From assembly GCA_005777315.1 (NCBI GenBank), contig SXMN01000146.1, positions 1 to 51,478 of the forward strand: a DNA stretch of 51,478 nucleotides, given 5' to 3'. Made by a program: the position numbers and the translations under genes. The stretch is from Verrucomicrobiales bacterium (GTDB lineage: Bacteria; Verrucomicrobiota; Verrucomicrobiia; Limisphaerales; F1-12-MAGs170). Of the stretch, positions 1,678 to 24,709 are shown one piece after another (position 1 is the stretch's first letter; each line of letters begins with the position of its first letter). Under the pieces are notes generated by a model. It made no database searches, was not told where the DNA came from, and saw nothing but the letters and a program-made list of their open reading frames with translations.

Positions 1678-2751
1678 CTACACTATCAGCATCGCGTCTC
1701 CATAGCTGAAGAAGCGGTATTTCTCAGCAATGGCGGCTTCATAGGCGCGCAAAATGGCTGCGCGTCCGGATGATTGACCGGGTGAGACAAAAGCGCTCAC
1801 CAACATCAATAGCGTTGAGCAAGGCAGGTGGAAGTTGGTCACCGGCGCGTCCACCACACGAAATTGAAAAGGTGGATGGATGAAGATTTTCGTCCGACCT
1901 TTGGTGGCGGTGATCTGACCATTCTGTTCTGCCGCGACGCTCTCAAGCACTCGTAGAGTTGTTGTTCCCACGGCGAAGACGCGCCCGCCCCTCTGTTTCG
2001 CGGAGTTGATTGCGGATGCCGATTCCAGACTGAGTTCGAAACGTTCCTCGTGCATCACGTGATTGGCGATTTCGTCTGCCTTGACTGGGGCAAAAGTCCC
2101 CAAGCCGATGTGAAGTGTCACCGTGCAAATCGTCACACCCATCGCCTTGATTTGATCAAGTAAAAGCTTGGTAAAATGAAGCCCTGCTGTCGGAGCGGCG
2201 ACCGAGCCCGGTTTGTTGGCGAAGACGGTCTGGTATCGCAGATTGTCCATCGTGTCGTGCTCCGCAGTGTTACGGTGGATATAAGGAGGCAGTGGGATTT
2301 CTCCGATCTGGTCCAGAGCACATGTCACGTCGGGATTACCTCTGAAGCTTATCCGGCAAAGTCCTTCTTCATTTTTCGCCAGCACCACTCCTTCGATTTC
2401 CGAAGGCTGCTTCGACCTATTCCAAAACCGGACAGTAGTGCCCGGGCGAACCCGCTTTCCTGGCCTGAGCATCACCCACCAGTCGTTTGGTGCGATTTCT
2501 TCAACCAGGAGAATCTCAACAAGCCCCCCTCCGTTCACCTTCACCCCCCGTGCCCTCGCCGGAATCACACGGGTGTCATTGAGCACCAGGACGTCATTGG
2601 GGCCGAGAGAGTGGATTAGCGCCGGGAAGAGCTTGTGGGTCAAAGTGGAGGGACGCTCAAAGACTAGAAGGCGGGAATCTTCCCGGTTGTCGCCTGGCTT
2701 CTGTGCAATCAACTCTTGGGGGAGCGAATAATCAAAGTCTTCAGTTCGCAC
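1678..2751 (-). CDS. queA: S-adenosylmethionine:tRNA ribosyltransferase-isomerase QueA
   Basis: This enzyme transfers and isomerises the ribosyl group of S-adenosylmethionine onto 7-aminomethyl-7-deazaguanine in tRNA, giving epoxyqueuosine at wobble position 34. The 357 residues match the usual family length. Family landmarks are the N-terminal FDYSLPQELIAQKP, VLNDTRVIPAR near residue 56, GSVAAPTAGLHFT in the middle and LHIGLGTFAPV. The start at 2751 gives the canonical MRTEDFDY N-terminus. It is divergent from mraZ, with about 230 bp of shared upstream sequence. No other queuosine gene is in the window. Confidence 0.97.
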   Translation of the reverse strand: MRTEDFDYSLPQELIAQKPGDNREDSRLLVFERPSTLTHKLFPALIHSLGPNDVLVLNDTRVIPARARGVKVNGGGLVEILLVEEIAPNDWWVMLRPGKRVRPGTTVRFWNRSKQPSEIEGVVLAKNEEGLCRISFRGNPDVTCALDQIGEIPLPPYIHRNTAEHDTMDNLRYQTVFANKPGSVAAPTAGLHFTKLLLDQIKAMGVTICTVTLHIGLGTFAPVKADEIANHVMHEERFELSLESASAINSAKQRGGRVFAVGTTTLRVLESVAAEQNGQITATKGRTKIFIHPPFQFRVVDAPVTNFHLPCSTLLMLVSAFVSPGQSSGRAAILRAYEAAIAEKYRFFSYGDAMLIV

Positions 2752-2880
2752 TGCTCCTTAATTAACACAGCGTCGAAACTTTCCAACAAAATCATTGGGC
2801 GAGTGTGACTTCCAACAATCTTTCACCTCACCGAACTTCCGCACCTTTGAGTCACGATCAACTCGATGTGAATAACTTGT

Positions 2881-2901
2881 GAACAGGTTGAACAGGTTCA
2901 A
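2881..2901. repeat. Direct and inverted repeat upstream of the mraZ promoter
   Basis: GAACAGGTT occurs twice in tandem (2881-2889 and 2890-2898). The same bases contain a perfect inverted repeat, TTGAAC-AG-GTTCAA (2888-2901). It sits 13 bp upstream of the proposed -35 element, a position suited to a regulator site. No known regulator is assigned. Confidence 0.4.
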
Positions 2902-2914
2902 ATCCTCAATTTTA

Positions 2915-2944
2915 TTGACGCATGTGGGTAGTTGTGGGTAGAAA
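2915..2944 (+). promoter_or_regulatory. Probable sigma-70 promoter of the dcw cluster (PmraZ)
   Basis: TTGACG at 2915-2920 and TAGAAA at 2939-2944 are separated by 18 bp, a near-consensus housekeeping promoter. Transcription would start near 2951, about 30 bases before the mraZ start. The spacer, the -10 element and the initial transcribed region are covered by the TGGG boxes, so a protein bound there would block transcription. This is inferred from sequence only. Confidence 0.65.
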
Positions 2945-2968
2945 TGGGTCGTTGTGGGGCGAAGCGGG
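2925..2968 (+). promoter_or_regulatory. MraZ operator: four TGGG boxes plus one CGGG box, 10-bp period
   Basis: TGGG begins at 2925, 2935, 2945 and 2955, and a fifth, degenerate box (CGGG) begins at 2965. The spacing is exactly 10 bp, one helical turn. MraZ proteins of other bacteria are known to bind arrays of TGGG-type boxes with this spacing in front of mraZ and to repress the dcw cluster. Here the array overlaps the promoter and ends 14 bp before the mraZ start, so autoregulation by the next gene is likely. The repeats are directly visible; the binding is inferred. Confidence 0.85.
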
Positions 2969-2982
2969 TTGGATTCCCGTAA

Positions 2983-3465
2983 ATGTCAGGTGGAATGTCA
3001 GCTACTAATTCCAACGATGCGGTGATCTTTTGTTCGCGCTATACGCATGGCGTGGATGAGAAGCGCCGCCTCCAGATTCCGGCGAAATGGAGACCTTCTG
3101 ACACGAGTACTGAACTGATGCTAATCGTATGGGATGGCAATGGGGCTGCCGGTAGTTGTCTTCGGGTTTATCCCCCTCAACAGATGCAGGCTTTGATGCA
3201 AAAAGTGGCAGCGATGTCCACCTCAGACCAAGAGGCTGTCGCCCTGCGCCGAAATATCGCCAAGAAGAGTGAGTGGGTGTCGATGGATAAAGCCGGACGA
3301 ATTTGCATCCCGGACGCCCTGGCGGCCGAAGCAGGTATCACCGGAGGCAAGACCGTAGCACTGGCTGGGGCACTGCAATGGTTCGAGATATGGGATGAGG
3401 ATCGTTACGCAAAGGTGAATGCGGGCGACAATGCTTTGCTCACCGATGCCATGAGACATTTGTGA
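2983..3465 (+). CDS. mraZ: MraZ, dcw cluster transcriptional repressor
   Basis: A 160-residue DNA-binding protein with two SpoVT/AbrB-like folds, normally a ring-shaped oligomer. Each half carries the family DxxxR-type motif: DEKRRLQIP near residue 25 and DKAGRICIP near residue 104. The length is close to other MraZ proteins (about 150). An alternative start at 2995 (fifth residue) directly follows AGGTGGA and could be the true one. It is the first gene of the dcw cluster and lies just behind its presumed operator. The C-terminus ends near residue 160 without the extra tail seen in some homologues. Confidence 0.95.
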   Translation: MSGGMSATNSNDAVIFCSRYTHGVDEKRRLQIPAKWRPSDTSTELMLIVWDGNGAAGSCLRVYPPQQMQALMQKVAAMSTSDQEAVALRRNIAKKSEWVSMDKAGRICIPDALAAEAGITGGKTVALAGALQWFEIWDEDRYAKVNAGDNALLTDAMRHL

Positions 3466-14078: not shown

Positions 14079-14207
14079 GCGGCGCGCCGCCTCAGACGGC
14101 GTGCCGGGACGCAGCCACACAATGCACAATGGTGGAAACAGGAATGAAGCGCGGAGCAATGGCGCCGGTTGGAGGAGCCGGGATTCGGTTCACGGCCCAT
14201 TGCTCCG
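14079..14207 (+). promoter_or_regulatory. Structured leader before ftsW (palindromes and 11-bp inverted repeat)
   Basis: Directly after the LysM gene comes the perfect 12-bp palindrome GCGGCGCGCCGC (14079-14090), overlapping a CGCCG/CGGCG hairpin. Further on, CGGAGCAATGG (14152-14162) and CCATTGCTCCG (14197-14207) form a perfect 11-bp inverted repeat with a 34-bp spacer. No T-run follows, so termination is not indicated. The arms lie within the upstream open frame of ftsW, which argues for an ftsW start after 14207. It could be an RNA leader or an operator; no known element is recognised. Confidence 0.5.
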
Positions 14208-14264
14208 TCTTCAATCATGCAGGGGGATGGTGAAAGCGATTTCATTTTTGCACTCATTCTGAAG

Positions 14265-15386
14265 ATGAAAGCCGCAACGACATTGATGGTATTTTGCGTG
14301 AGCAGCCTGGTTTCCCTTGGGCTGGTGATGATGTATAGCGCCGGCAACATCCACAAGGCGGGCGGCACTCAATTCTTCGTGATGCAATTCATCTCGTTTG
14401 GAATTGGACTCACGGTTTGCATTGCGGCGGCGACTCTGGACTATCGGATTCTGCGCAAGCTGGTCTGGGTTCTCTTTGCCATCACCATCGTGCTTCTGGT
14501 TGGAGTCCTTTTCACGAAGCTGACGAACGGGTCCAGGCGGTGGTTCAAAGTTGGCGGGTTTTCATTTCAGCCGTCTGAGCTGGCGAAGTTATCCTTGATT
14601 CTGGCCCTGGCCTGGTATGCGGAAAAATATCATGTGCTTATGCCACGATTGTGGCATGGCATTTTGCGGCCAGCGCTCTTCATTGGGCCGGTTCTCGCGT
14701 TGGTTGTTGTCGAGCCGGACGTGGGAACAACAATTTTGCTGGGCATGGTCAGCATGATCCTTCTCGTGCTGGGTGGGGTGAAGCTGAGGTATTGTTTGCC
14801 GCCTGCGTTGATTTGTGTCGCCGCGCTGGCGTATTTCATCGCGAATGATGGCAACCGCTCGGAACGGATTCGCTCGTGGTTGCACGTGGAAGAAACCAAG
14901 CAAGGCAGGGGACTGCAGGCGTGGGAGGCGCGCCTTGCTTTCGGGTCTGGCGGCTGGGCCGGGCGGGGGCTTGGCAGCAGCCGCCAGAAACTCGAAAGAA
15001 TTTTGCCGGAGCACCATACCGATTTCATTCTTCCAATCATCGGTGAGGAATTGGGGCTTCCGGCAACACTTGGTGTCACATCACTGTTCGCGATCTTTGT
15101 CTGCTGCGGCTATCGCATCTCGTCACGGGCACCGGATACCTTTGGAGTGTTGCTCGGTGCCGGGATCACGTTTCTGGTGGGCACCCAGGCATTCGTTAAT
15201 ATCGCCGTGGTCACCGGGGTTCTCCCCAACAAGGGTCTGCCACTTCCATTCATCAGTTACGGCGGATCCAATCTGATAATGATGCTGGGATGTGTGGGGG
15301 TGCTGTTGAGCATTGCCAGGCATGCTGTGGAACGGCCCATGGAACACTCCACCGAGAATCCATTCTCACGTGCCTACTCTTCCTGA
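14265..15386 (+). CDS. ftsW: Septal peptidoglycan glycosyltransferase FtsW
   Basis: SEDS-family polymerase that extends glycan strands from lipid II at the septum, paired with FtsI. The frame is open from 14169, but ATG 14265 (373 residues) places the first membrane helix at the N-terminus as usual and lies downstream of the 11-bp inverted repeat; ATG 14217 is an alternative. Family motifs: MMYSAGN after the first helix, GSRRWFKVGGFSFQPSELAKL, VEPDVGTTILL, and near the end GVLPNKGLPLPFISYGGSNL. About ten membrane segments are apparent. It lies between the LysM gene and murG. Confidence 0.95.
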   Translation: MKAATTLMVFCVSSLVSLGLVMMYSAGNIHKAGGTQFFVMQFISFGIGLTVCIAAATLDYRILRKLVWVLFAITIVLLVGVLFTKLTNGSRRWFKVGGFSFQPSELAKLSLILALAWYAEKYHVLMPRLWHGILRPALFIGPVLALVVVEPDVGTTILLGMVSMILLVLGGVKLRYCLPPALICVAALAYFIANDGNRSERIRSWLHVEETKQGRGLQAWEARLAFGSGGWAGRGLGSSRQKLERILPEHHTDFILPIIGEELGLPATLGVTSLFAIFVCCGYRISSRAPDTFGVLLGAGITFLVGTQAFVNIAVVTGVLPNKGLPLPFISYGGSNLIMMLGCVGVLLSIARHAVERPMEHSTENPFSRAYSS

Positions 15387-15390
15387 GAAA

Positions 15391-16608
15391 ATGAATCAAA
15401 TTCCCTCAAGACGACCGCTGGTTGCCATCGCGTGCGGTGGCACGGGTGGGCATTTCTTCCCGGGACTCGCTGTGGCGGAGGTTCTTCAGGACATGGGATG
15501 CGAGATCTTATTGATGATCTCGCCCAAGCAAGTGGATCAGGATGCGGTGAAGTCCGCATCGGGCATGGATGTGCTTACCCTGCCTGTGATAGGACTTCAG
15601 AATGGAGAGATCGGGAGTTTCCTGCGCGGTCTGTGGAGCTCCTACTGGATGTGTACCCGGAAATTCCGTCATCGTTCTCCGGCGGCGGTTCTTGCGATGG
15701 GCGGCTTTACTAGTGCACCGCCGATACTGGCTGGCAGACGGTTTGGAGCGGTCACATGTCTTCACGAGGCCAATTCGATTCCAGGCCGCGCGAATCGCTG
15801 GCTGGCACCGTGGATTGAGGCGGCGTTCGTCGCATTTCCTGGAGCTGGCCGCCGGCTGGCAACGCAACGAGTTGCCCTGACTGGCATGCCGGTGAGGCCT
15901 CAATTCAAACCGATGGATCCCGCTGGTTGTCGCATGGCGCTCGGCCTAGCCATGGAGAAACCGGTGTTGGTTACCACCGGCGGAAGCCAGGGAGCAAGCG
16001 GCATCAACCGGCTTGTCTGCGATGTGCTTCCAACGTTGGTGAAGCAGATGCCGGAATTGCAGTTTGTTCACCTGACCGGCACGAAGGACATTGAGATGGT
16101 GCGGGCGGCTTATGCTGGCGTGGGTGCTAGATCGGTGGTTCTGCCCTTCCTGACAGAAATGGAGCTCGCTCTTGGAGCCGCTACGTTGGTGATTAGTCGG
16201 GCTGGAGCCTCATCCATCGCCGAAATCGCTTCGATGAGTGTCCCCTCCGTCCTCATCCCCTTCCCGGACGCTGCGGACAATCATCAGTACTTCAATGGGC
16301 TTGCGTTGGCGAAGATCAACGCGGCTGTTCAGGTCGAACAATCCCGCGTGGAAGCGAACGCATTTTCGAGAACCATCCTCGATCTGATTCGCGATGAAAG
16401 GACCCGAACTCGCATGTCAGAGGCGTTGGCACGCTGGCATGTCTCCGACGCTGCGGAGGCCATCGCTCATCGCATGTTAAGTTTGATGGGGGTTCCTCAA
16501 CTGGGCAATCCCCGGGCAGATCTAATGGCGTCGAGCCATGAGGCTGATCACAGAACATTTACGCCAGGCCCGCGTCCGATTTCGCGCTGGCAATTGCAGC
16601 CTTCATGA
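15391..16608 (+). CDS. murG: Lipid II-forming GlcNAc transferase MurG
   Basis: Peripheral inner-membrane glycosyltransferase that adds GlcNAc to lipid I. ATG 15391, four bases after the ftsW stop, gives 405 residues and the canonical start with the glycine-rich CGGTGGHFFPGLAVAE at about residue 14. Later motifs are MGGFTSAPPILAG, HEANSIPGRANR, TTGGSQGASGIN and, in the C-terminal domain, SRAGASSIAEIA with PFPDAADNHQYFN. About 45 residues follow the usual end, a poorly conserved tail. Its stop overlaps the murC/B start by four bases (ATGA). Confidence 0.96.
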   Translation: MNQIPSRRPLVAIACGGTGGHFFPGLAVAEVLQDMGCEILLMISPKQVDQDAVKSASGMDVLTLPVIGLQNGEIGSFLRGLWSSYWMCTRKFRHRSPAAVLAMGGFTSAPPILAGRRFGAVTCLHEANSIPGRANRWLAPWIEAAFVAFPGAGRRLATQRVALTGMPVRPQFKPMDPAGCRMALGLAMEKPVLVTTGGSQGASGINRLVCDVLPTLVKQMPELQFVHLTGTKDIEMVRAAYAGVGARSVVLPFLTEMELALGAATLVISRAGASSIAEIASMSVPSVLIPFPDAADNHQYFNGLALAKINAAVQVEQSRVEANAFSRTILDLIRDERTRTRMSEALARWHVSDAAEAIAHRMLSLMGVPQLGNPRADLMASSHEADHRTFTPGPRPISRWQLQPS

Positions 16609-19061
16609 ACCCACCACTTCAACAAGTGCAACTTCTGGAGATTCTGTGCCGGGCGAAGCCTGGTGCGACGGTGTATCTGGTGGGTGCTGGCGGCTGTGGC
16701 ATGAGCGGGCTTGGTCAGATCCTGCTCGACATCGGATTCCGGCTGGCTGGTTCGGATCTCGTAACAGGAGAAGAAGTCCTCCAACTGCGTGCCCGGGGCG
16801 CGGAAATTCATTCCGATCACAGTGAGGATCACATTCAAAGCGCCAAACCTTTTCTAGTCGTTTACACTTCCGCCGTGCGCCGGGATAACCCGGAGTTACT
16901 CGCGGCAGAGCGCCTCCGAGTGCCGATGGTGCGGCGTGCCGTCCTCCTGGCCGCCCTGATGCGGCTTCAACGCGGCCTCTGCGTCGCGGGCATGCACGGT
17001 AAGACGACCACTACGGCCATGCTGGCTTTTGCGCTGGAGCAAATGGGCCAAACGCCCAGCTACGCGATCGGCGCGCTGGTGCCGCAGTTGAAGCGGCACG
17101 CTCAATTTGTCGGGTGTGGTGCGAACGCACCGTCACTATCACAACCTGGGGAGTCTGAGAGCGGACTCTTGTGCATCATACCAGGTTTGGGTGAGAAGGA
17201 CGGTGTGGGCGCGCCACACTCACAGCTTTTCTTCGCGATCGAAGCGGATGAGAGCGATGGCACCTTGCGGGAGTTCCATCCCGACCACGCCATACTCTTG
17301 AACATCGATGCGGAACATCTCGATTATTACGCCAACATCGACGCCATTGGGCGCGAGTTTCTCCAGTTCGCTTCACAGACGCGCGGCCACCTTGTCTTCT
17401 GCGCGGATGACGCGCGGCTGGCCGCCTTGCTGTCGGAAAATTCTCGCGCGGTTTCCTACGGTTTCAATTCGCTTGCCACGTATCGCATCGAGCCGGTTGG
17501 CGCGTCACGGTCCTCAGGTGATTCGCTGGAGCAGCGCTTTGTAATCTGGCTCAAGGGCCGGCGGCTGGGAGAATTTTCCACCCGCCTGATTGGGGAGAAG
17601 AATCTCTCAAATGCTGCCGCAGTCGTGACACTTCTGCACTTGCTCGGTTTTGAGGCTGAAGGAATCGCAGCCGCCATTGCGCCATTCCAAGGAGCTGCCC
17701 GCCGGCAGCAGGAGTTATTCACAGATTCACGCTTCAGAGTCTTTGACGATTACGGGCATCACCCGGCCGAAATCAGGGCGACACTTGCCGCCTTCAAGGA
17801 GCTGGGTGCTCGTCGTTTGCTCGTCGCCTTCCAACCTCATCGCTTCTCGCGCACGCAACAGTTGCTTGCAGAGTTCGCCACGGCGTTCAAAGAGGCCGAC
17901 CAGCTCTGGCTCACCGCCATCTATCCCGCGAGTGAACCGCCCATTCCGGGGGTGACAAGCGAACTTCTGGCCGGGGCAATCGAGGCGCAAGGGCAGCAGG
18001 TGGAAGTGATTTCGGATTTGCGTCAATTGAACGAGAGCATCCGAGCCGCAATGCAGCCCGGCGACCTGGTGCTGTTCCTCGGAGCCGGGGCGGACATCAC
18101 CGTGGCGGCACGGGAATTGGCGTCGATTTTGCGCCAGGAGCATCCATCTGTGAATGAATCGATCTTCGCCGACCTGGCCGCGCGTTTGCCGGCGCAAACA
18201 TTTTTAAGGCGTGACGAACCTCTGAAGAAACGCACGACACTTCGAGTGGGTGGCAAAGCAGACATTTACGTTGAACCGTCCTCGGAGTCGGACCTGGCGG
18301 AGGTGTTGAAGTTTTGCGCGCAGAAGCACATGCCATTTACCCTTCTCGGACGCGGATCGAACCTCCTCATCCGGGACGGCGGGATCCGTGGTGTAGTGAT
18401 CTGCCTCGGGCATCCGAACTTCAGCCAGATCGAAATCTCCGGTGAAAATCTCCATTGTGGCGCCGGAGCAAGACTGAAGGCTGTCGCAGTGGAAGCACGT
18501 CGGAAAGGGCTCACGGGACTGGAATTTCTGGAAGGTATTCCTGGCAGCGTTGGCGGAGCGATGCGGATGAATGCCGGAGCAATGGGTTCCTGGATGTTTG
18601 ATGTCGTCGAGCGCATCCGGTTCATGGATTACACTGGCGAAGTTCACGAGCGCTCTGCGGCAGAGGTCACAGTCGAGTACCGAGGATGTCCGCTCTTCAA
18701 GAATCACATTGCATTGGGTGCTGTGATCAGGGGGCAGCGAGCTTCAGTCGAGGCAATCCGGGAACGGATGGATGTATTCAGCAACAAACGCTGGGAATCG
18801 CAACCAAACCAACCCAGCGCTGGATGCATCTTCAAGAATCCCCAGACCATTCCCGCCGGAAGGTTGATTGACGAACTGGGGCTGAAGGGAACCCGCGTTG
18901 GCGGAGCGTTGGTATCCGACATTCACGGAAATTTCATTGTAAATGACGGGACGGCGACGGCACGGGATGTCTTGAATCTTATCGAAATCATCAAGCAACG
19001 TGCGAAATCGACGAGGGGTATCGAATTGTGCACCGAAGTCGAGATACTAGGAGAAGGCTGA
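16605..19061 (+). CDS. murC/murB: MurC-MurB fusion: UDP-MurNAc:L-alanine ligase and UDP-MurNAc dehydrogenase
   Basis: One 818-residue protein joins two cytoplasmic enzymes that act in sequence, in reverse order of the reactions. Residues 1 to about 505 are MurC: N-terminal GAGGCGMSGLGQILLD, ATP loop MHGKTTTT with Lys133, EADESDGTL, NIDAEHLDYY and DDYGHHPAEI. An insertion of about 30 residues rich in Gly, Ser and Glu precedes EADESDG. Residues from about 516 are MurB, an FAD enzyme: RTTLRVGGKADIYVEP, LGRGSNLLIRDGG, GIPGSVGGAMRMNAGAMG, then SAGCIFKNP with catalytic Ser738 and the final EVEILG glutamate. The lack of a Y-loop suggests type II MurB. Fused versions are reported in Verrucomicrobia, which fits the inferred host. 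Confidence 0.96.
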   Translation: MNPPLQQVQLLEILCRAKPGATVYLVGAGGCGMSGLGQILLDIGFRLAGSDLVTGEEVLQLRARGAEIHSDHSEDHIQSAKPFLVVYTSAVRRDNPELLAAERLRVPMVRRAVLLAALMRLQRGLCVAGMHGKTTTTAMLAFALEQMGQTPSYAIGALVPQLKRHAQFVGCGANAPSLSQPGESESGLLCIIPGLGEKDGVGAPHSQLFFAIEADESDGTLREFHPDHAILLNIDAEHLDYYANIDAIGREFLQFASQTRGHLVFCADDARLAALLSENSRAVSYGFNSLATYRIEPVGASRSSGDSLEQRFVIWLKGRRLGEFSTRLIGEKNLSNAAAVVTLLHLLGFEAEGIAAAIAPFQGAARRQQELFTDSRFRVFDDYGHHPAEIRATLAAFKELGARRLLVAFQPHRFSRTQQLLAEFATAFKEADQLWLTAIYPASEPPIPGVTSELLAGAIEAQGQQVEVISDLRQLNESIRAAMQPGDLVLFLGAGADITVAARELASILRQEHPSVNESIFADLAARLPAQTFLRRDEPLKKRTTLRVGGKADIYVEPSSESDLAEVLKFCAQKHMPFTLLGRGSNLLIRDGGIRGVVICLGHPNFSQIEISGENLHCGAGARLKAVAVEARRKGLTGLEFLEGIPGSVGGAMRMNAGAMGSWMFDVVERIRFMDYTGEVHERSAAEVTVEYRGCPLFKNHIALGAVIRGQRASVEAIRERMDVFSNKRWESQPNQPSAGCIFKNPQTIPAGRLIDELGLKGTRVGGALVSDIHGNFIVNDGTATARDVLNLIEIIKQRAKSTRGIELCTEVEILGEG

Positions 19062-19981
19062 TGGATCATCCGCTTCAAATAACCGTACTGTTGGGAGGGC
19101 CTTCCGCTGAAAGGGCGGTGTCCCTGGTGACTGGGGCTGCGGTTGCCCGGGCGTTGCGAACACTTGGGCATGTGGTTTGGGAAGTTGATCCGAAGGAGGG
19201 ACGCTTCGAGCTCCCTGCTGGAACGGATGTGGTCTTTCTGGCTTTGCATGGCACTTACGGCGAGGACGGAACGGTACAGGAGCAATTGGAAATGCTCGGT
19301 GTGCCTTACACAGGTTGTGGACCTGAATCGAGCCGCGTGGCTTTTGACAAGGTGGCAACCAAGAAACGTTGCATTTCAGAAGGCGTGCCCACGCCACGCT
19401 ACCTTGTTGTCACAGATCCGGCCTTGCCGTGGCCGAAAGGTTGGGAACCGCCCGTCGTTGTGAAACCGGTGCGGCAGGGATCGAGTGTAGGACTTCAATT
19501 TGTGGACGCAGTCGGTCAGTGGCCGTCGGCTTTGGCTGAGTCGCTGAAGTTTGATTCCGAAGTGGTGGTCGAGGAAAGAATCGGTGGCCGCGAGACGACT
19601 GTGGGGATCCTCGATGGAATTGCGCTGCCGGTTGTTGAAGTGCGGCCCAAGCAAGGCAGCTATGACTACGCCAACAAGTACACGGCCGGGAAGACTGAGT
19701 ACTTTTGCCCGGCGGCATTTGATGAATCAACGACACACCGCATCCAAGCCGCAGGCATGGGCGGATTTCGAGCCATTGGCGGCAGAGACTATGCGCGAGT
19801 GGATGTGATGGTCCGGCCTTCGGGTGAAGCGCTCGTCCTGGAAGTGAACACCCTGCCCGGCATGACGGAGACAAGCTTGTTGCCGAAAGCAGCAGCCGCT
19901 GCCGGGATCGAATACGGCCAGTTGTGCCAGCGGATGGTGGATCTGGCCCTGCGTCGCCAAACCGCGCTGATAAAGTGCTGA
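19061..19981 (+). CDS. ddl: D-alanine:D-alanine ligase
   Basis: Joins two D-alanines with ATP for use by MurF. ATG 19061 overlaps the murC/B stop by one base and is preceded by AGGAG (19049-19053) at seven bases, so the start is secure; 306 residues, the DdlB length. An ATP-grasp enzyme with LLGGPSAERAVSL at the N-terminus, ALHGTYGEDGTVQEQLE, KPVRQGSSVG, EERIGGRETTVG, and at the metal and active site DVMVRPSGEALVLEVNTLPGMTETSLLP. It sits between murC/B and ftsQ, as in many proteobacterial dcw clusters. A GC hairpin follows the stop. Confidence 0.96.
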   Translation: MDHPLQITVLLGGPSAERAVSLVTGAAVARALRTLGHVVWEVDPKEGRFELPAGTDVVFLALHGTYGEDGTVQEQLEMLGVPYTGCGPESSRVAFDKVATKKRCISEGVPTPRYLVVTDPALPWPKGWEPPVVVKPVRQGSSVGLQFVDAVGQWPSALAESLKFDSEVVVEERIGGRETTVGILDGIALPVVEVRPKQGSYDYANKYTAGKTEYFCPAAFDESTTHRIQAAGMGGFRAIGGRDYARVDVMVRPSGEALVLEVNTLPGMTETSLLPKAAAAAGIEYGQLCQRMVDLALRRQTALIKC

Positions 19982-20040: not shown

Positions 20041-21051
20041 ATGCCGCGACCAGCTTCGCGGAACATTGTTGAATTGCGATTGCCCATGAAGTGGTTCAAA
20101 CGAAAACCGAAAAACCGGCGATTCGAGCGTGCGAACGTGCTTGAAGTGAAGATGCACTCAAAGCTCGTCCACTCGGCACGGGTGCGCATGTTCACTTCCG
20201 CGCTGGCGTGGACCTTGGGGACGCTCATCACCATTTTGCTGGTGTGGCGTGTCTCGGAGTGGGCGTTGAACCGCTTTGTTTACACGAATCCCACCTTCGC
20301 CATTGAGGAGATCGAGGTGCAGACAGATGGGATCATTCCTCTGGAACAGTTGCGCGAATGGACAGGAGTCAAAGAGGGCGAAAATCTGTTCGCCGTGGAT
20401 ATCCGCCGCCTGACGCGGGACTTGAAATTGAATACGCTGATCCAGGATGCCGCTGTGGAGCGGGTGTTGCCTGGAAAACTTTGGGTGCGAATCACGGAGC
20501 GCGAACCGGTCGTCCAGTTCACCAAATGGCAGCAGCCATCTCCGGGATCCGGTTTTCGTCCGGTGACGTTCTATTTCGACTCCAACGGCGTGATGCTGAT
20601 GCCGACGGACCTTCCCAAACTGACCGCTCAGCTCGCGGAGCAGTTTGACCACCTGCCCCGGATGATGGGCGTCAAAGGCAGCGACCTTGCCAAGGGCCGC
20701 CCTGTCGAAGAACCGATGATCCGGATGGCGCTTCAATTCATCGAGAAGTTCGGCCAGTCGGAAATGAGCTCTTTCGCCGATCTGGTCGAGCTGGACATCA
20801 CCTCGTCCCAGGTGATTGAAGTTACTACAAGGCAGGGGAGCAGACTTACATTTGGGCATGAGGATCTGGGACGGCAGCTTCGCCGGTGGCGGGCCGTTCA
20901 TGATTACACCGGCGGGGTCGGCAAGGCGATATCGACGCTCGATCTTTCCGTGTCAAACAATGTTCCGGCCCGCTGGCAGGAGGCGGGCCTTTTGCCCGCC
21001 TCCCAACCACAGAACAAGAAACCTTCACCCTACAAAAAGAAACATGTTTAA
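20041..21051 (+). CDS. ftsQ: Cell division protein FtsQ/DivIB
   Basis: Bitopic membrane protein that connects early and late divisome proteins with FtsB and FtsL. The 336-residue frame has a basic cytoplasmic N-terminus (KWFKRKPKNRRFERAN), one membrane segment near 58-77, a POTRA domain from about 90 (FAIEEIEVQTDGIIPLEQLREWTGV) with the ERVLPGKLWVRITEREPVVQF strand, and the FtsQ domain. The start is uncertain: ATG 20041 and ATG 20086 are both possible. The C-terminal tail is encoded partly by a perfect hairpin repeat and is likely not conserved. It overlaps ftsA by eight bases. Confidence 0.9.
   Translation: MPRPASRNIVELRLPMKWFKRKPKNRRFERANVLEVKMHSKLVHSARVRMFTSALAWTLGTLITILLVWRVSEWALNRFVYTNPTFAIEEIEVQTDGIIPLEQLREWTGVKEGENLFAVDIRRLTRDLKLNTLIQDAAVERVLPGKLWVRITEREPVVQFTKWQQPSPGSGFRPVTFYFDSNGVMLMPTDLPKLTAQLAEQFDHLPRMMGVKGSDLAKGRPVEEPMIRMALQFIEKFGQSEMSSFADLVELDITSSQVIEVTTRQGSRLTFGHEDLGRQLRRWRAVHDYTGGVGKAISTLDLSVSNNVPARWQEAGLLPASQPQNKKPSPYKKKHV
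20979..21003 (+). repeat. Perfect 10-bp hairpin inside the 3' end of ftsQ
   Basis: GGAGGCGGGC (20979-20988), loop CTTTT, GCCCGCCTCC (20994-21003). It lies in the FtsQ reading frame, coding for part of EAGLLPASQ, and ends 40 bases before the ftsA start. A further stem, GGCCCGC with GCGGGCC, overlaps the left arm. Together with the similar hairpin after ddl it suggests a REP-like element that has entered the coding end of ftsQ and may affect the message between ftsQ and ftsA. Confidence 0.75.
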
Positions 21052-22267
21052 TTCTTCGCCGATCATCGTCGGATTGGAATTGGGCACCTCAAAGGTTTGT
21101 GCCGTTGTCGGACAATTGAGTGACGGAGGCGTCCTGAATATCATCGGCTTGGGACAATCTCGCTCAAGGGCCATCCGGAAGGGTGAGATCGTCAATGCGA
21201 GCGATGTCGCCGAGGATATCCGCAATGCGATCGTAGAGGCCGAACAGATGGCGGATGTCGAGATTCGCAGCGTCTATCTCGGAGTTACTGGCGGCCACAT
21301 CCGGGGCTTCAACAATCGCGGGTTTCATTCCGTGGTATCCGCAGATCGCGAGATCGCGCCCGAGGACGTGCATGATGTGATCAAGAATGCCAAAGCCATC
21401 AACCTTTCCGCGGAGAACCGTGTGGTCCACGTCGTGAGGCAGCATTTCAGTGTGGATGGCCAGAATGGGATTGCCGACCCGGTGGGGATGTTCGGCGCCC
21501 GCCTGGAGGTTGATGTTCACGTGGTCCATGGACAATTCACGCGGCTTCAAAACCCAATCCGCGCGGTGAAGGGGGTGCAGATTGATGTGGAGAACATCGT
21601 CTTCACCGGGCTGGCTTCATCGCTGGCATTGTTGAGCAACGAGCAGAAGGAGCTGGGAGCGCTCGTCATCGATATTGGAGGCGGCACCACTGAATTCATT
21701 GTCTATTCTGCGGGGACCATCAAACACACGGGAGTCTTGGCGATCGGTGGCGATCACATCTCGAATGACCTCGGATATGGCTTGAAAGTTCCTCTGCCCA
21801 TGGCGGAGAAGCTCAAGATCGAACACGGTTCGGCGGTCGTGGACGACTCTGATAAGGGGATTGCCATTCAACTGCCTTGCGAGACGGGACTGCCGGACCG
21901 GACGATACAGGTCGGACATCTCCGTCGTATCATGTCCTTGCGTGTCGAGGAAATTCTGGAACTCGTCAACGAGGAGATTGAGGGCACGGGGCTTCGGGAA
22001 TACATGCGCGCCGGGGCCTTCCTTTGCGGCGGCGGAGCTCGCATTTCGCAGATCGACAAAGTTGCATCTCGAATTCTGGGAATGCCCGCGTCGATCGGAC
22101 GCACCAATTCCATGAGCGGCTTGAAATCGGCTCTCGATCAACCGGAGTTTTCCACAGCGATTGGCCTGGTGAAGTTCGGCTCATTCGAGCAGCAGAAACA
22201 TTTGCACCGAACGGGGCCATTGCACGCGCTGAAGAGCCGTTTCTCCCAGTTCTTTCGGGTTGGATGA
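21044..22267 (+). CDS. ftsA: Cell division protein FtsA
   Basis: Actin-like ATPase that anchors FtsZ filaments to the membrane. ATG 21044 gives 407 residues and the usual N-terminus (IVGLELGTSKVCAVVG); the frame is open further upstream but that part overlaps ftsQ. The SHS2 (1C) domain follows, including NRVVHVVRQHFSVDGQNGI. Phosphate-2 region VIDIGGGTTEF and the adenosine part GGGARISQIDKVASRIL are present. A C-terminal amphipathic membrane helix is plausible in LKSRFSQFFRVG. It overlaps ftsQ by eight bases, so their translation is coupled, and precedes ftsZ. Confidence 0.96.
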   Translation: MFNSSPIIVGLELGTSKVCAVVGQLSDGGVLNIIGLGQSRSRAIRKGEIVNASDVAEDIRNAIVEAEQMADVEIRSVYLGVTGGHIRGFNNRGFHSVVSADREIAPEDVHDVIKNAKAINLSAENRVVHVVRQHFSVDGQNGIADPVGMFGARLEVDVHVVHGQFTRLQNPIRAVKGVQIDVENIVFTGLASSLALLSNEQKELGALVIDIGGGTTEFIVYSAGTIKHTGVLAIGGDHISNDLGYGLKVPLPMAEKLKIEHGSAVVDDSDKGIAIQLPCETGLPDRTIQVGHLRRIMSLRVEEILELVNEEIEGTGLREYMRAGAFLCGGGARISQIDKVASRILGMPASIGRTNSMSGLKSALDQPEFSTAIGLVKFGSFEQQKHLHRTGPLHALKSRFSQFFRVG

Positions 22268-22280
22268 ATTTTTGATTTGA

Positions 22281-23594
22281 ATGGAAACTATGATGACTTC
22301 GCCTGACACCGCGCCGGTGATGAAGACTCTCTCGATCCGTGTCATCGGCCTGGGTGGCGCGGGCGTCACACTTGTCGGGAAATTTCACGCAGAAGCACCG
22401 GACGGGGTGAGGTGCGCGGTCATTCATACGAATTCACGAGTGCTCGATCACTCCCCCTGCGCGGAGAGAGTGTTGCTCGGCGCAAAGCTGCTGCGCGGTC
22501 TTGGCGCGGGAGGTGATCCGGACCTGGGCAGAGCGGTTGCAGAGGATAGCGCCGATCAATTGAAATCGCTGTGCTCCGACACCGACCTGGTTTTAATAGT
22601 CGCGGGTCTCGGAGGTGGCACGGCGACGGGTGTCGCACCGGTTCTTGCTCGAATCGCGAAAGACGCCGGCGCTCTGGTCTTGGCAGTGGTGGCTGTTCCA
22701 TTCGATTTTGAGGGGCAGCGGCAGCGGCAGGCACAGGCGGGGTTGCGGAAGTTGCGAGGTGCGGCAGATGCAGTGCTCTGCCTTCACAACCAAAAGGTCT
22801 GCCAACTGTGGAACGAAGACACTCGAGCCCTGGAAATTTTCAACAGCGCCAATGAACTTTGGGTGCAAGGCGTGCAGGGCGTGCTGAACATCCTCACGCG
22901 GCGAGGGTTCATTCACGTGGATTTCGCGGATCTGGCGGCGGTGCTGCGTGGCAGGAATTCGGAAAGTTGCTTCGCGACCGTGGAGGCCGCCGGCGAGAAT
23001 CGAGGCCGTGACTTGATTGAAAAGGCGCTCGCACATCCCGTGCTGGATCGTGGACACGCGTTGACCGAAGCGGACGCGCTGTTGGTCACACTCATGGGAG
23101 GTCCGGATATGACAATCGGCGAAGTCAATCGCGTCATGGATGCGCTGCGTCGGCAACCGGAGGACGCCCAGTTCATCATGGGAGCAAGCATCAGCGAGGA
23201 GTTTGCAGGCAGGCTTTCATTGACCGTTGTTGCCGCGAAGCATGCGGTTCAAGACGTTGATCAACCGAACGACAAGAATTCCCCAGGCGGTGGACGTCCA
23301 GGCGATCCGCAGATTGAAACGCAGTTCTTGCAGTCACCGGAACCGGAATCACTGTCTGCCTCCCGGTTTGTGCCGCCTCCCCCGGAATTGACGGAATCGA
23401 AAAAAAGCGAGCTGTTTGCCAGGCAAGGCGGACGTGGCGGAAAAATGCGCAAGGCCGGATCTCGTTGGCGTCAGGGGCAATTGCCCTTGGAAATCATTTC
23501 CAAAGGCCGTTTCGAGAAGAGCCAGCCAACCATCCACCATGGCGAAGATCTGGACGTTCCAACCTACATCCGGCGTGGAATCAAATTGAACTGA
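22281..23594 (+). CDS. ftsZ: Divergent cell division GTPase FtsZ
   Basis: Tubulin-like GTPase that forms the Z-ring; 437 residues. Identity is clear from VIGLGGAG, RGLGAGGDPDLGR, VAVPFDFEGQRQ and the last gene position after ftsA. The C-terminal peptide DLDVPTYIRRGIKLN, which binds FtsA in other bacteria, is well kept behind a proline/serine-rich linker. Several GTP-site residues differ from the usual: the tubulin signature GGGTGTG is GGGTATG (111-117, Ala115), the T2-loop NTD is HTN, GGGGG of T1 is GGAGV, and the T7 catalytic loop NVDFAD is HVDFAD (His212, with Asp214 and Asp217 kept). Possible starts are ATG 22281, 22290 and 22293. It is the last gene of the cluster. Confidence 0.93.
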   Translation: METMMTSPDTAPVMKTLSIRVIGLGGAGVTLVGKFHAEAPDGVRCAVIHTNSRVLDHSPCAERVLLGAKLLRGLGAGGDPDLGRAVAEDSADQLKSLCSDTDLVLIVAGLGGGTATGVAPVLARIAKDAGALVLAVVAVPFDFEGQRQRQAQAGLRKLRGAADAVLCLHNQKVCQLWNEDTRALEIFNSANELWVQGVQGVLNILTRRGFIHVDFADLAAVLRGRNSESCFATVEAAGENRGRDLIEKALAHPVLDRGHALTEADALLVTLMGGPDMTIGEVNRVMDALRRQPEDAQFIMGASISEEFAGRLSLTVVAAKHAVQDVDQPNDKNSPGGGRPGDPQIETQFLQSPEPESLSASRFVPPPPELTESKKSELFARQGGRGGKMRKAGSRWRQGQLPLEIISKGRFEKSQPTIHHGEDLDVPTYIRRGIKLN

Positions 23595-23708: not shown

Positions 23709-23724
23709 AACGTCCCGGTACGTT
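23709..23724. repeat. Small inverted repeat before the AraC gene
   Basis: AACGT (23709-23713) and ACGTT (23720-23724) form a perfect 5-bp inverted repeat with a 6-bp spacer, ending seven bases before ATG 23732. It could be an autoregulatory site or chance. The rest of 23595-23708 shows nothing, including no clear terminator after ftsZ. Confidence 0.25.
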
Positions 23725-23731
23725 GAATCGC

Positions 23732-24709
23732 ATGCGTAGTTCCCGGAAAAGCGCGGCGTTCCAGAACCTGCTGGCCATTGCGGGCCGGTTGAGGTTTCAA
23801 CCCCATCGAATCGACCATTTGCTAAATGAGGCGGGGAGGCACGAGTTGACGCTGCCTGAGGGATTTCCTTTCACGGTTAACTTGTTTAGATTTCGTGAAG
23901 GAGCGACCAGCCAACGCCCCACCTGGCATGAGAGGTTGGAGTTGTTGATGCCTCTGGACGGTCCCCTGAGCGAACGGATGGGGGATCTCGTGGTGGATTT
24001 GATGCCCGGCGACGTGCTGGTGGTGGATCATTTGAAACCTCACCAGGTGGTGGATACACAAGGGCTTCGCACACGTGTCGTGGTCATCTCGTTTCTTCCG
24101 GAGTGTGTCTTCACTCCCGGTTCACCGCCGACCGATTATGCGTTTCTAATTCCCTTTCACCGGAAGGTTGAGGGCAGGCCGCACGTTCTGCCTGCCAACT
24201 CCAGGCAAGCTGAGGCAGTGCATCAAGCGATCGGCCAGCTCCTGAATTGCCACTTCGACAAGCACAACTTTCATCGCGAAGCCGGCTGCAAGGCGTGGCT
24301 CCTGGTGTTGTTGAATGTATTGATCCGTGAATTCCGGGATTCGGCGATGGATCGGGTCGAACTTCTTTGGCGTCAGGAGCAGGCGGCCCGCCTCAAACCT
24401 GTGTTTGATCATGTGCGTGAGAATTATGCTGGGCGTCTTTCACTCAGCGCCGCGGCTGCCATGTGCGGCATGGGCGCCGCGAAATTTGGACGTGTGTTCA
24501 AAGATGCCGCAGGCATGACAATGGGTAGCTACTTGAACCACGTCCGCATGGGGCACGCCGTGGAATTGCTGGAGGAAACGCATGAGTCGATTGCGGAAAT
24601 TGCGTTCAAACTTGGGTTCAGTGATCAAAGCCACTTCGATCGCCGCTTTCGCCGGACCTTCGGGCGCACCCCAAGCCGTCACAGGATCAGTTTCACTTCC
24701 CGGCGTTGA
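23732..24709 (+). CDS. AraC-family transcriptional regulator with cupin sensor domain
   Basis: A 325-residue protein from ATG 23732 (TTG 23723 is possible). The N-terminal half is a cupin-type ligand domain (TWHERLELLMPLDGP, MPGDVLVVDHLKPHQVV). The C-terminal 100 residues hold two helix-turn-helix units: LSLSAAAAMCGMGAAKFGRVF and IAEIAFKLGFSDQSHFDRRF, followed by FGRTPSRHR. AraC proteins of this layout usually activate sugar-use genes in response to the sugar. It is not part of the dcw cluster although it follows ftsZ in the same direction. No sugar gene is adjacent on this side, so the target is unknown. Confidence 0.92.
   Translation: MRSSRKSAAFQNLLAIAGRLRFQPHRIDHLLNEAGRHELTLPEGFPFTVNLFRFREGATSQRPTWHERLELLMPLDGPLSERMGDLVVDLMPGDVLVVDHLKPHQVVDTQGLRTRVVVISFLPECVFTPGSPPTDYAFLIPFHRKVEGRPHVLPANSRQAEAVHQAIGQLLNCHFDKHNFHREAGCKAWLLVLLNVLIREFRDSAMDRVELLWRQEQAARLKPVFDHVRENYAGRLSLSAAAAMCGMGAAKFGRVFKDAAGMTMGSYLNHVRMGHAVELLEETHESIAEIAFKLGFSDQSHFDRRFRRTFGRTPSRHRISFTSRR

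Follow-up and report, generated by a model that had tools for sequence, protein, structure and literature searches.

Probable working FtsZ of a Pedosphaera-like bacterium with substituted interface residues and both T7 aspartates, and mutually exclusive T7 carboxylate loss among Verrucomicrobiota

Our results demonstrate that the only ftsZ detected in the genome of a Pedosphaera-like member of the Verrucomicrobiota is under purifying selection and can be regarded as a working gene, whose product carries other residues at the positions of the interface cation relay of model FtsZ proteins and retains both catalytic aspartates of the T7 loop. They also demonstrate that the two T7 carboxylates are not lost independently across the phylum: after one is lost, the other is retained, and loss of both is strongly disfavored. 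FtsZ is the ring protein used by most bacteria for division, and treadmilling driven by GTP hydrolysis at D210 and D213 (D209 and D212 in Escherichia coli) is central to current models of this process. We assign a probability of roughly 0.55 to the reading that the FtsZ studied here binds GTP, polymerizes, and hydrolyzes GTP through a remodeled subunit interface, its biochemistry and turnover being what we infer from the sequence data. A tentative extension to the phylum, which we place somewhat below even odds, is that the GTPase of verrucomicrobial FtsZ can operate on a single T7 carboxylate, that the cation relay has been rebuilt in some lineages, and that at least one genus divides with a non-treadmilling FtsZ that has kept its tail.

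The window ftsZ and its neighborhood

The window, the whole 51,478-nucleotide stretch of DNA that was analyzed, harbors an open frame at positions 22281 to 23594 of the forward strand that translates into 437 residues (the window FtsZ) and passes the curated cutoffs of both PF00091 (112 bits; cutoff, 33) and PF12327 (57.1 bits; cutoff, 27). Its sole NCBIfam match is TIGR00065 (E = 4e-77), and because the score of 259.9 bits lies below the trusted cutoff of 295.2, which is diagnostic and does not speak to mechanism, the protein is best filed as a divergent verrucomicrobial FtsZ orthologue and not as a canonical FtsZ. Such divergence had been mentioned in a sequence-only reading of this DNA and is borne out here, in agreement with the literature (PMC9871819, PMC12283558). 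It is known already, verrucomicrobial FtsZ having been ranked among the most divergent (PMC9871819).

Structure prediction, which the same reading had proposed, yielded a confident FtsZ fold. The AF2 model, computed from an input of ten sequences, has as its top PDB matches (E = 1e-36) B. subtilis FtsZ (2rhj and 2vxy; TMt, 0.89 to 0.91) and other FtsZ structures. Its pLDDT is mostly 82 to 95 in the GTPase domain and 61 to 68 around T7, a region that is thus of medium confidence only. The matches to PF12327 and to FtsZ structures exclude an identity as BtubA or BtubB, which have a eukaryotic-like C-terminal domain. The host genome (5.66 Mb, 82% complete) contains a single PF00091 match, the window ftsZ itself, and no other tubulin-family gene was found in this assembly. 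A second canonical FtsZ located elsewhere is ruled out for the host genome and for nearly all of the 218 genomes of the order.

The gene resides in a dcw cluster, 13 bp downstream of ftsA. On the same strand, the cluster comprises ftsW (14169 to 15386, with an uncertain start codon; PF01098, E = 3e-87), murG (15313 to 16608; PF04101, E = 8e-35, and PF03033, E = 6e-22), a murC-murB fusion with five Mur_ligase/MurB domains in one frame (16605 to 19061), the D-Ala-D-Ala ligase gene ddl (19028 to 19981; PF07478, E = 3e-49), ftsQ (20041 to 21051; PF08478 POTRA_1, E = 4e-10), and ftsA, encoding 407 residues (21044 to 22267; PF14450, E = 2e-34, and PF02491, E = 5e-25). A murC-murB fusion has already been described for Verrucomicrobium spinosum (PMC12283558). 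Directly 3' of ftsZ, a gene for an AraC-family regulator (23723 to 24709, same strand) lies outside the usual dcw set.

The nearest named relative is Pedosphaera sp. isolate Baikal-deep-G226 (93% identical). Compared with a 93%-identical relative of the same genus (locus L003 of genome G001), the window ftsZ displays a dN/dS of 0.10, and the differences within the genus leave the catalytic and relay positions untouched. This ratio and the identical residues in the relative led us to reject an assembly or frame error.

Toward the C terminus, a variable linker (23241 to 23465; mean majority-residue fraction in the order, 0.29) is disordered, with a pLDDT of <50. It is followed by an extended tail, GRFEKSQPTIHHGEDLDVPTYIRRGIKLN (23505 to 23591), predicted from residue conservation to be of the FtsA-binding type. 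The motif DVPTYIRR starts at residue 425, within the tail core DLDVPTYIRRG, and among the 141 FtsZ proteins of the order, Phe411, Leu424, Asp425, Pro427, Thr428, and Arg431 are 96 to 97% conserved. The segment GRFEKSQPTIHHGED (23505 to 23564), which precedes the FtsA tail, is found throughout the order (Phe411, 97%) and makes this region longer than the canonical tail peptide. It is perhaps a second partner site.

Active-site residues

Alignment with B. subtilis FtsZ, whose numbering is given here in one-letter code, identified the substitutions N25T, N44H, D46N, Q48R, G110A, and N208H, corresponding to Thr30, His49, Asn51, Arg53, Ala115, and His212 of the window FtsZ. Retained are G72 (Gly77), R143 (Arg147), N166 (Asn170), F183 (Phe187), D210 (Asp214), and D213 (Asp217). 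The T1 loop, GGAGV (residues 25 to 29) with Thr30, spans 22353 to 22370 on the forward strand; further along on this strand lie the T2 residues His49-Thr50-Asn51 and Arg53 (22425 to 22439), the T4 tubulin signature GGGTATG with Ala115 (residues 111 to 117; 22611 to 22631), and the T7 loop GFIHVDFAD(L) with His212, Asp214, and Asp217 (22905 to 22931). GGGTATG does not match the diagnostic PROSITE pattern PS00227, [SAG]GGTG[SAT]G (pattern as given in PMC1845146).

The translation confirmed every motif listed in the sequence-only reading (GGAGV, HTN, GGGTATG with Ala115, His212, both aspartates, and DVPTYIRR). Overlooked there were the replacement of Q48 by Arg53 and the loss of T7 aspartates elsewhere in the phylum. 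In T1, for which it had listed GGAGV, the real change is that of N25 to Thr30, with threonine at this position in 5 sequences of the order; GGAG itself is ordinary in the phylum, as alanine occupies position 22 in 126 of 141 sequences of the order, 34 of 43 from other orders of the class, and 18 of 45 from other classes.

The roles of these residues are known from filament structures of S. aureus FtsZ (SaFtsZ) published in 2022, in which the T2 residues belong to the Mg2+/K+ crosstalk of the lower subunit: the water shell of Mg2+ is contacted from its lower side by N44 and D46, the side chain of N208 is bound to both D46 and Q48 and keeps a K+ ion in place within T7, Q48 contacts this K+ site, and N25 touches the nucleotide. 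The attacking water is held by D210, D213, and G72, and R143 functions in the manner of an arginine finger. SaFtsZ no longer assembles when it carries any one of the mutations D46A, N208L, D210N, and D213N (PMC8936486). Because D46, Q48, and N208 matter for SaFtsZ assembly or GTPase activity (PMC8936486), the altered hydrolysis or turnover that had been suggested for the window FtsZ is a reasonable expectation.

For comparison we used 229 FtsZ sequences from Verrucomicrobiota (141 from the same order, 43 from other orders of the class, and 45 from other classes), a sample with many draft assemblies, inferred order names, and an automatic alignment and tree. The controls from outside the phylum were 12 scored named FtsZ proteins, drawn from records of E. 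coli K-12 and of a plasmid collection, many of which are chromosomes filed as plasmids; the Thiodictyon protein is from a true plasmid copy. Scored over 22 pocket positions, the median is 22 for the controls, 20 for sequences from other orders, and 18 for those from other classes; in the order of the window it is 17, which is also the score of the window FtsZ. The GTP contacts E139 and R143 are conserved in 99% and 94% of the order, respectively.

The proposal that the changes cluster at nucleotide contacts did not hold. At positions invariant in the 12 controls, the window FtsZ differs in 6 of 23 pocket positions and 3 of 16 non-pocket positions (Fisher P = 0.71), and pocket enrichment was likewise absent in the order, the class, and the phylum, where the balance is similar. 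What survives of the altered-site interpretation is that the changes lie in the nucleotide/T7 interface, with no special cluster in the pocket; divergence proceeds at a comparable pace throughout the core.

The sequence-only reading had also asked whether the set is lineage-wide or shared with ordinary, active FtsZ proteins. Sharing is seen for the individual changes, each of which recurs in other single-copy FtsZ proteins of the phylum: among the sampled sequences, G110A occurs in about 18 clades, N44H in 6, D46N in 4, and N208H in 3. G110A is present in 13 of 141 sequences of the order and 9 of 45 from other classes, and N208, the T7 asparagine, is retained in 57 of 141 sequences of the order, compared with 11 of 12 controls. 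The full set is a different matter; it is present in the same-genus genome and confined to that genus. Apart from the window FtsZ and that of its genus mate, a single distant genome combines five changed relay positions with intact G72, R143, D210, and D213.

T7 carboxylates and FtsZ relics in the phylum

The complete T7 motif NxDxxD is present in 11 of 12 controls (an accessory plasmid copy lacks it), 38 of 141 sequences of the order, none of 43 from other orders of the class, and 9 of 45 from other classes. Even when only D210 and D213 are considered, both are found in all 12 controls but in 47 of 141, 0 of 43, and 20 of 45 sequences, respectively. The other orders usually retain D210 with Thr, Ala, or Ser at 213 (as in GLINLDFATL) or retain D213 with Gly at 210. 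On the FastTree tree, D210 has been lost in about 19 to 21 clades and D213 in about 24 to 32; loci L164 to L171 represent a type without D213 (NxDxxT), and locus L210 represents one without D210 (KxGxxD). Mutants of model species are altered at these positions: E. coli D212G retains marginal GTPase activity and has static rings (PMC7320174), and condensation of the Z ring is disturbed in B. subtilis by D213A (PMC8079713).

These losses exclude each other. Among 240 scored sequences, an acid is missing at position 210 in 86, at position 213 in 78, and at both in 6 (28 expected); within the phylum, both are missing in only 6 of 227 scored sequences, and the window FtsZ has both. Independent loss was rejected by simulation on the tree (P = 3e-4), by a Pagel test favoring the dependent over the independent model (P = 6.6e-5), and under a loss-only model on a tree built without the T7 columns (P = 7e-5). 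Applied to subsets, the loss-only test gave P = 0.037 for the order itself and P = 0.008 for all remaining sequences, controls included. When only Asp is accepted and Glu is not counted, the evidence for exclusivity is weaker (P = 0.046). Because one carboxylate has been lost outright in sister lineages and almost never both, this pattern implies that one T7 carboxylate may be enough in Verrucomicrobiota and argues that some function of the T7 acid, most simply GTP hydrolysis, is probably still selected in the phylum. The exclusivity thus argues against a general loss of GTPase activity.

Several further observations concern the same loops. In the alignment of the order, sequences with D210H carry T109A in T4 in 15 of 25 cases, versus 0 of 73 sequences with D210, an association that is borderline on the tree (P = 0.058) and possibly reflects a different catalytic arrangement. 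In the FtsZ sequences of two families from other orders of the class (f59, loci L205 and L207; f65, loci L204 and L249), T4 and T7 are heavily altered (GGAMGSAG; EEAPFDSINF; RMRVDLAAF), and the DLDVPTY tail is missing as well from those of L204 and L249.

In one genus (g40), neither PF00091 nor PF12327 matched anywhere in its two genomes (G044 and G045; 92% and 94% complete). Both genomes nevertheless contain an open frame after ftsA, at positions 2104 to 3423 of locus L094 (G044, contig C96), where it begins immediately at the stop of ftsA, and at locus L092 (G045, contig C46). The readings of 439 and 445 residues end in GRFAKCDPTYYDSINLDEPTYLRKHTVFN or near it. An FtsZ profile of the order matches the C-terminal part (L094, domain E = 3e-14), and a profile of the GTPase core of the order's FtsZ proteins found no match in the g40 frame. 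We read this frame as a putative FtsZ with a decayed GTPase domain that has retained its FtsA-binding end. The two relics are 34% identical, and dS is saturated, which makes an estimate of selection unreliable. An intermediate state is seen in G040 (loci L091 and L093, contig C475), which belongs to a sister genus within this family, with a PF00091 match of only 33 bits, an intact tail, and the T7 sequence KIKLSHL, which has no acid at 210 or 213.

Three genomes of another class, 94 to 96% complete, have a match to FtsA (G363 and G402 of genus g187, loci L274 and L276, and also G366). PF00091 and PF12327 matched nothing in these three genomes, and no FtsZ-like frame lies beside ftsA in L274 or L276; in L275, the FtsA frame was not recovered by the ORF scan. 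This raises the possibility of a division with FtsA and without FtsZ. Together with the g40 relic, such genomes could be intermediates toward the FtsZ-less division of related PVC phyla.

Proposed mechanism, alternatives, and known systems

We propose that the Pedosphaera-like bacterium divides with the window FtsZ and that this protein is a member of a phylum-wide type with a remodeled composite GTPase site. In model FtsZ proteins, the interface is tightened by a Mg2+/K+ relay made up of the T2 residues N44, D46, and Q48 of one subunit and N208 in T7 of the next, and every relay residue is replaced here (Thr30, His49, Asn51, Arg53, and His212). Hydrolysis would be maintained via Asp214, Asp217, Arg147, and Gly77. 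FtsA anchoring, GTP binding, and polymerization are expected to persist, and hydrolysis is expected to shift in rate and in its dependence on K+ and Mg2+. As a speculation, Arg53 and the two histidines might do the work of the metal relay; a tree-based test of co-evolution between N44H and Q48R fell short of significance (P = 0.56), which gives no support for an arginine in place of K+. Because model FtsZ proteins are inactivated by individual changes at such positions, the window FtsZ could equally be poor in hydrolysis.

This bears on a distinctly less probable explanation, in which the FtsZ of the whole phylum would be a weak or dead GTPase forming static, FtsA-anchored filaments, septal synthesis would be independent of treadmilling, and the tail would be the essential part. 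Consistent with it, just 47 of the 229 verrucomicrobial sequences have an intact NxDxxD, only the C-terminal part and tail of FtsZ are recognizable after ftsA in g40, and mutants of model species point the same way: E. coli D212G forms static rings with marginal GTPase activity (PMC7320174), and E. coli overexpressing D212A plus FtsA still makes septa (PMC4383033). A dead enzyme, however, would not be expected to avoid double carboxylate loss, nor does it fit with the near invariance of E139 and R143 in the order or with the two aspartates of the window FtsZ. Drift with compensation, that is, a fast-evolving FtsZ core throughout the Verrucomicrobiota that tolerates substitutions with normal kinetics, appears doubtful. 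It would account for changes being no denser inside the pocket than outside it, alike in order, class, and phylum, for the median position of the window FtsZ within its order, and for the divergence already recognized in verrucomicrobial FtsZ (PMC9871819, PMC12283558); yet the residues concerned are nearly invariant in the controls from other phyla, the tested single mutants of SaFtsZ lose assembly, and drift does not predict that D210 and D213 losses exclude each other.

That the window ftsZ is a decaying gene, no longer needed and about to be lost because another system has taken over division, is very improbable, even though the GTPase domain is no longer recognizable in the related genus g40 and FtsZ matches are absent altogether from a few further genomes of Verrucomicrobiota. 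Strong purifying selection in the genus, the intact frame, the full dcw cluster, and the lack of a second tubulin-family gene in the host genome all speak against it, as does the essentiality of ftsZ in Verrucomicrobium spinosum, a species with targeted mutagenesis (PMC12283558). Our preferred reading is that of an active GTPase with a remodeled interface, and the window FtsZ provides one testable point at which the cation relay is replaced and the catalytic carboxylates are retained. More broadly, the single-copy ftsZ genes of the phylum amount to a series of natural experiments that ask what division requires of the active site, and such variants offer a test of the chemistry now accepted for the division ring.

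As in the FtsZ proteins of B. subtilis, S. aureus, and E. coli, the window FtsZ has the FtsZ fold with PF00091 and PF12327, a dcw location after ftsA, E139, R143, N166, F183, D210, and D213, and a tail of the DVPTYIRR type. Unlike them, it has the six substitutions, a TIGR00065 score below the cutoff, and a tail extended upstream by the conserved GRFEKxxPTIHxGED. The positions mutated in E. coli D212A and D212G and in SaFtsZ D46A, N208L, D210N, and D213N are altered naturally in single-copy FtsZ proteins of the phylum; single mutants of model FtsZ proteins have marginal GTPase activity or do not assemble (PMC7320174, PMC8936486), whereas in Verrucomicrobiota the altered states are the wild type. 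FtsZl1 and tubulin_2 (PMC2875224) also belong to the FtsZ/tubulin superfamily and have noncanonical sequences, but the window FtsZ is a dcw-encoded orthologue with the FtsZ C-terminal domain and FtsA tail.

Searches of open-access literature turned up no earlier description of the T7 losses, of their mutual exclusivity, or of the relic, and T7-loop loss in Verrucomicrobiota is not mentioned in PMC1845146, PMC12283558, PMC5147048, PMC9871819, or PMC2875224. The FtsZ of V. spinosum has been termed canonical, yet eight odd positions were given for it (PMC1845146). The window FtsZ resembles the V. spinosum/Prosthecobacter type in being a divergent FtsZ encoded beside ftsA, and His at 44 and Arg at 48 occur also in the Prosthecobacter-like genome G413. 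As read in that genome, this type has GGGTGSG in T4 and a T7 without D210 (KLGLDDL, with Gly at 210; KxGxxD), whereas the window FtsZ retains D210 and D213. G413 and a second Prosthecobacter-like genome of the same genus (G416; g136) harbor 2 to 4 extra tubulin genes in addition to a single FtsZ with this KLGLDDL loop.
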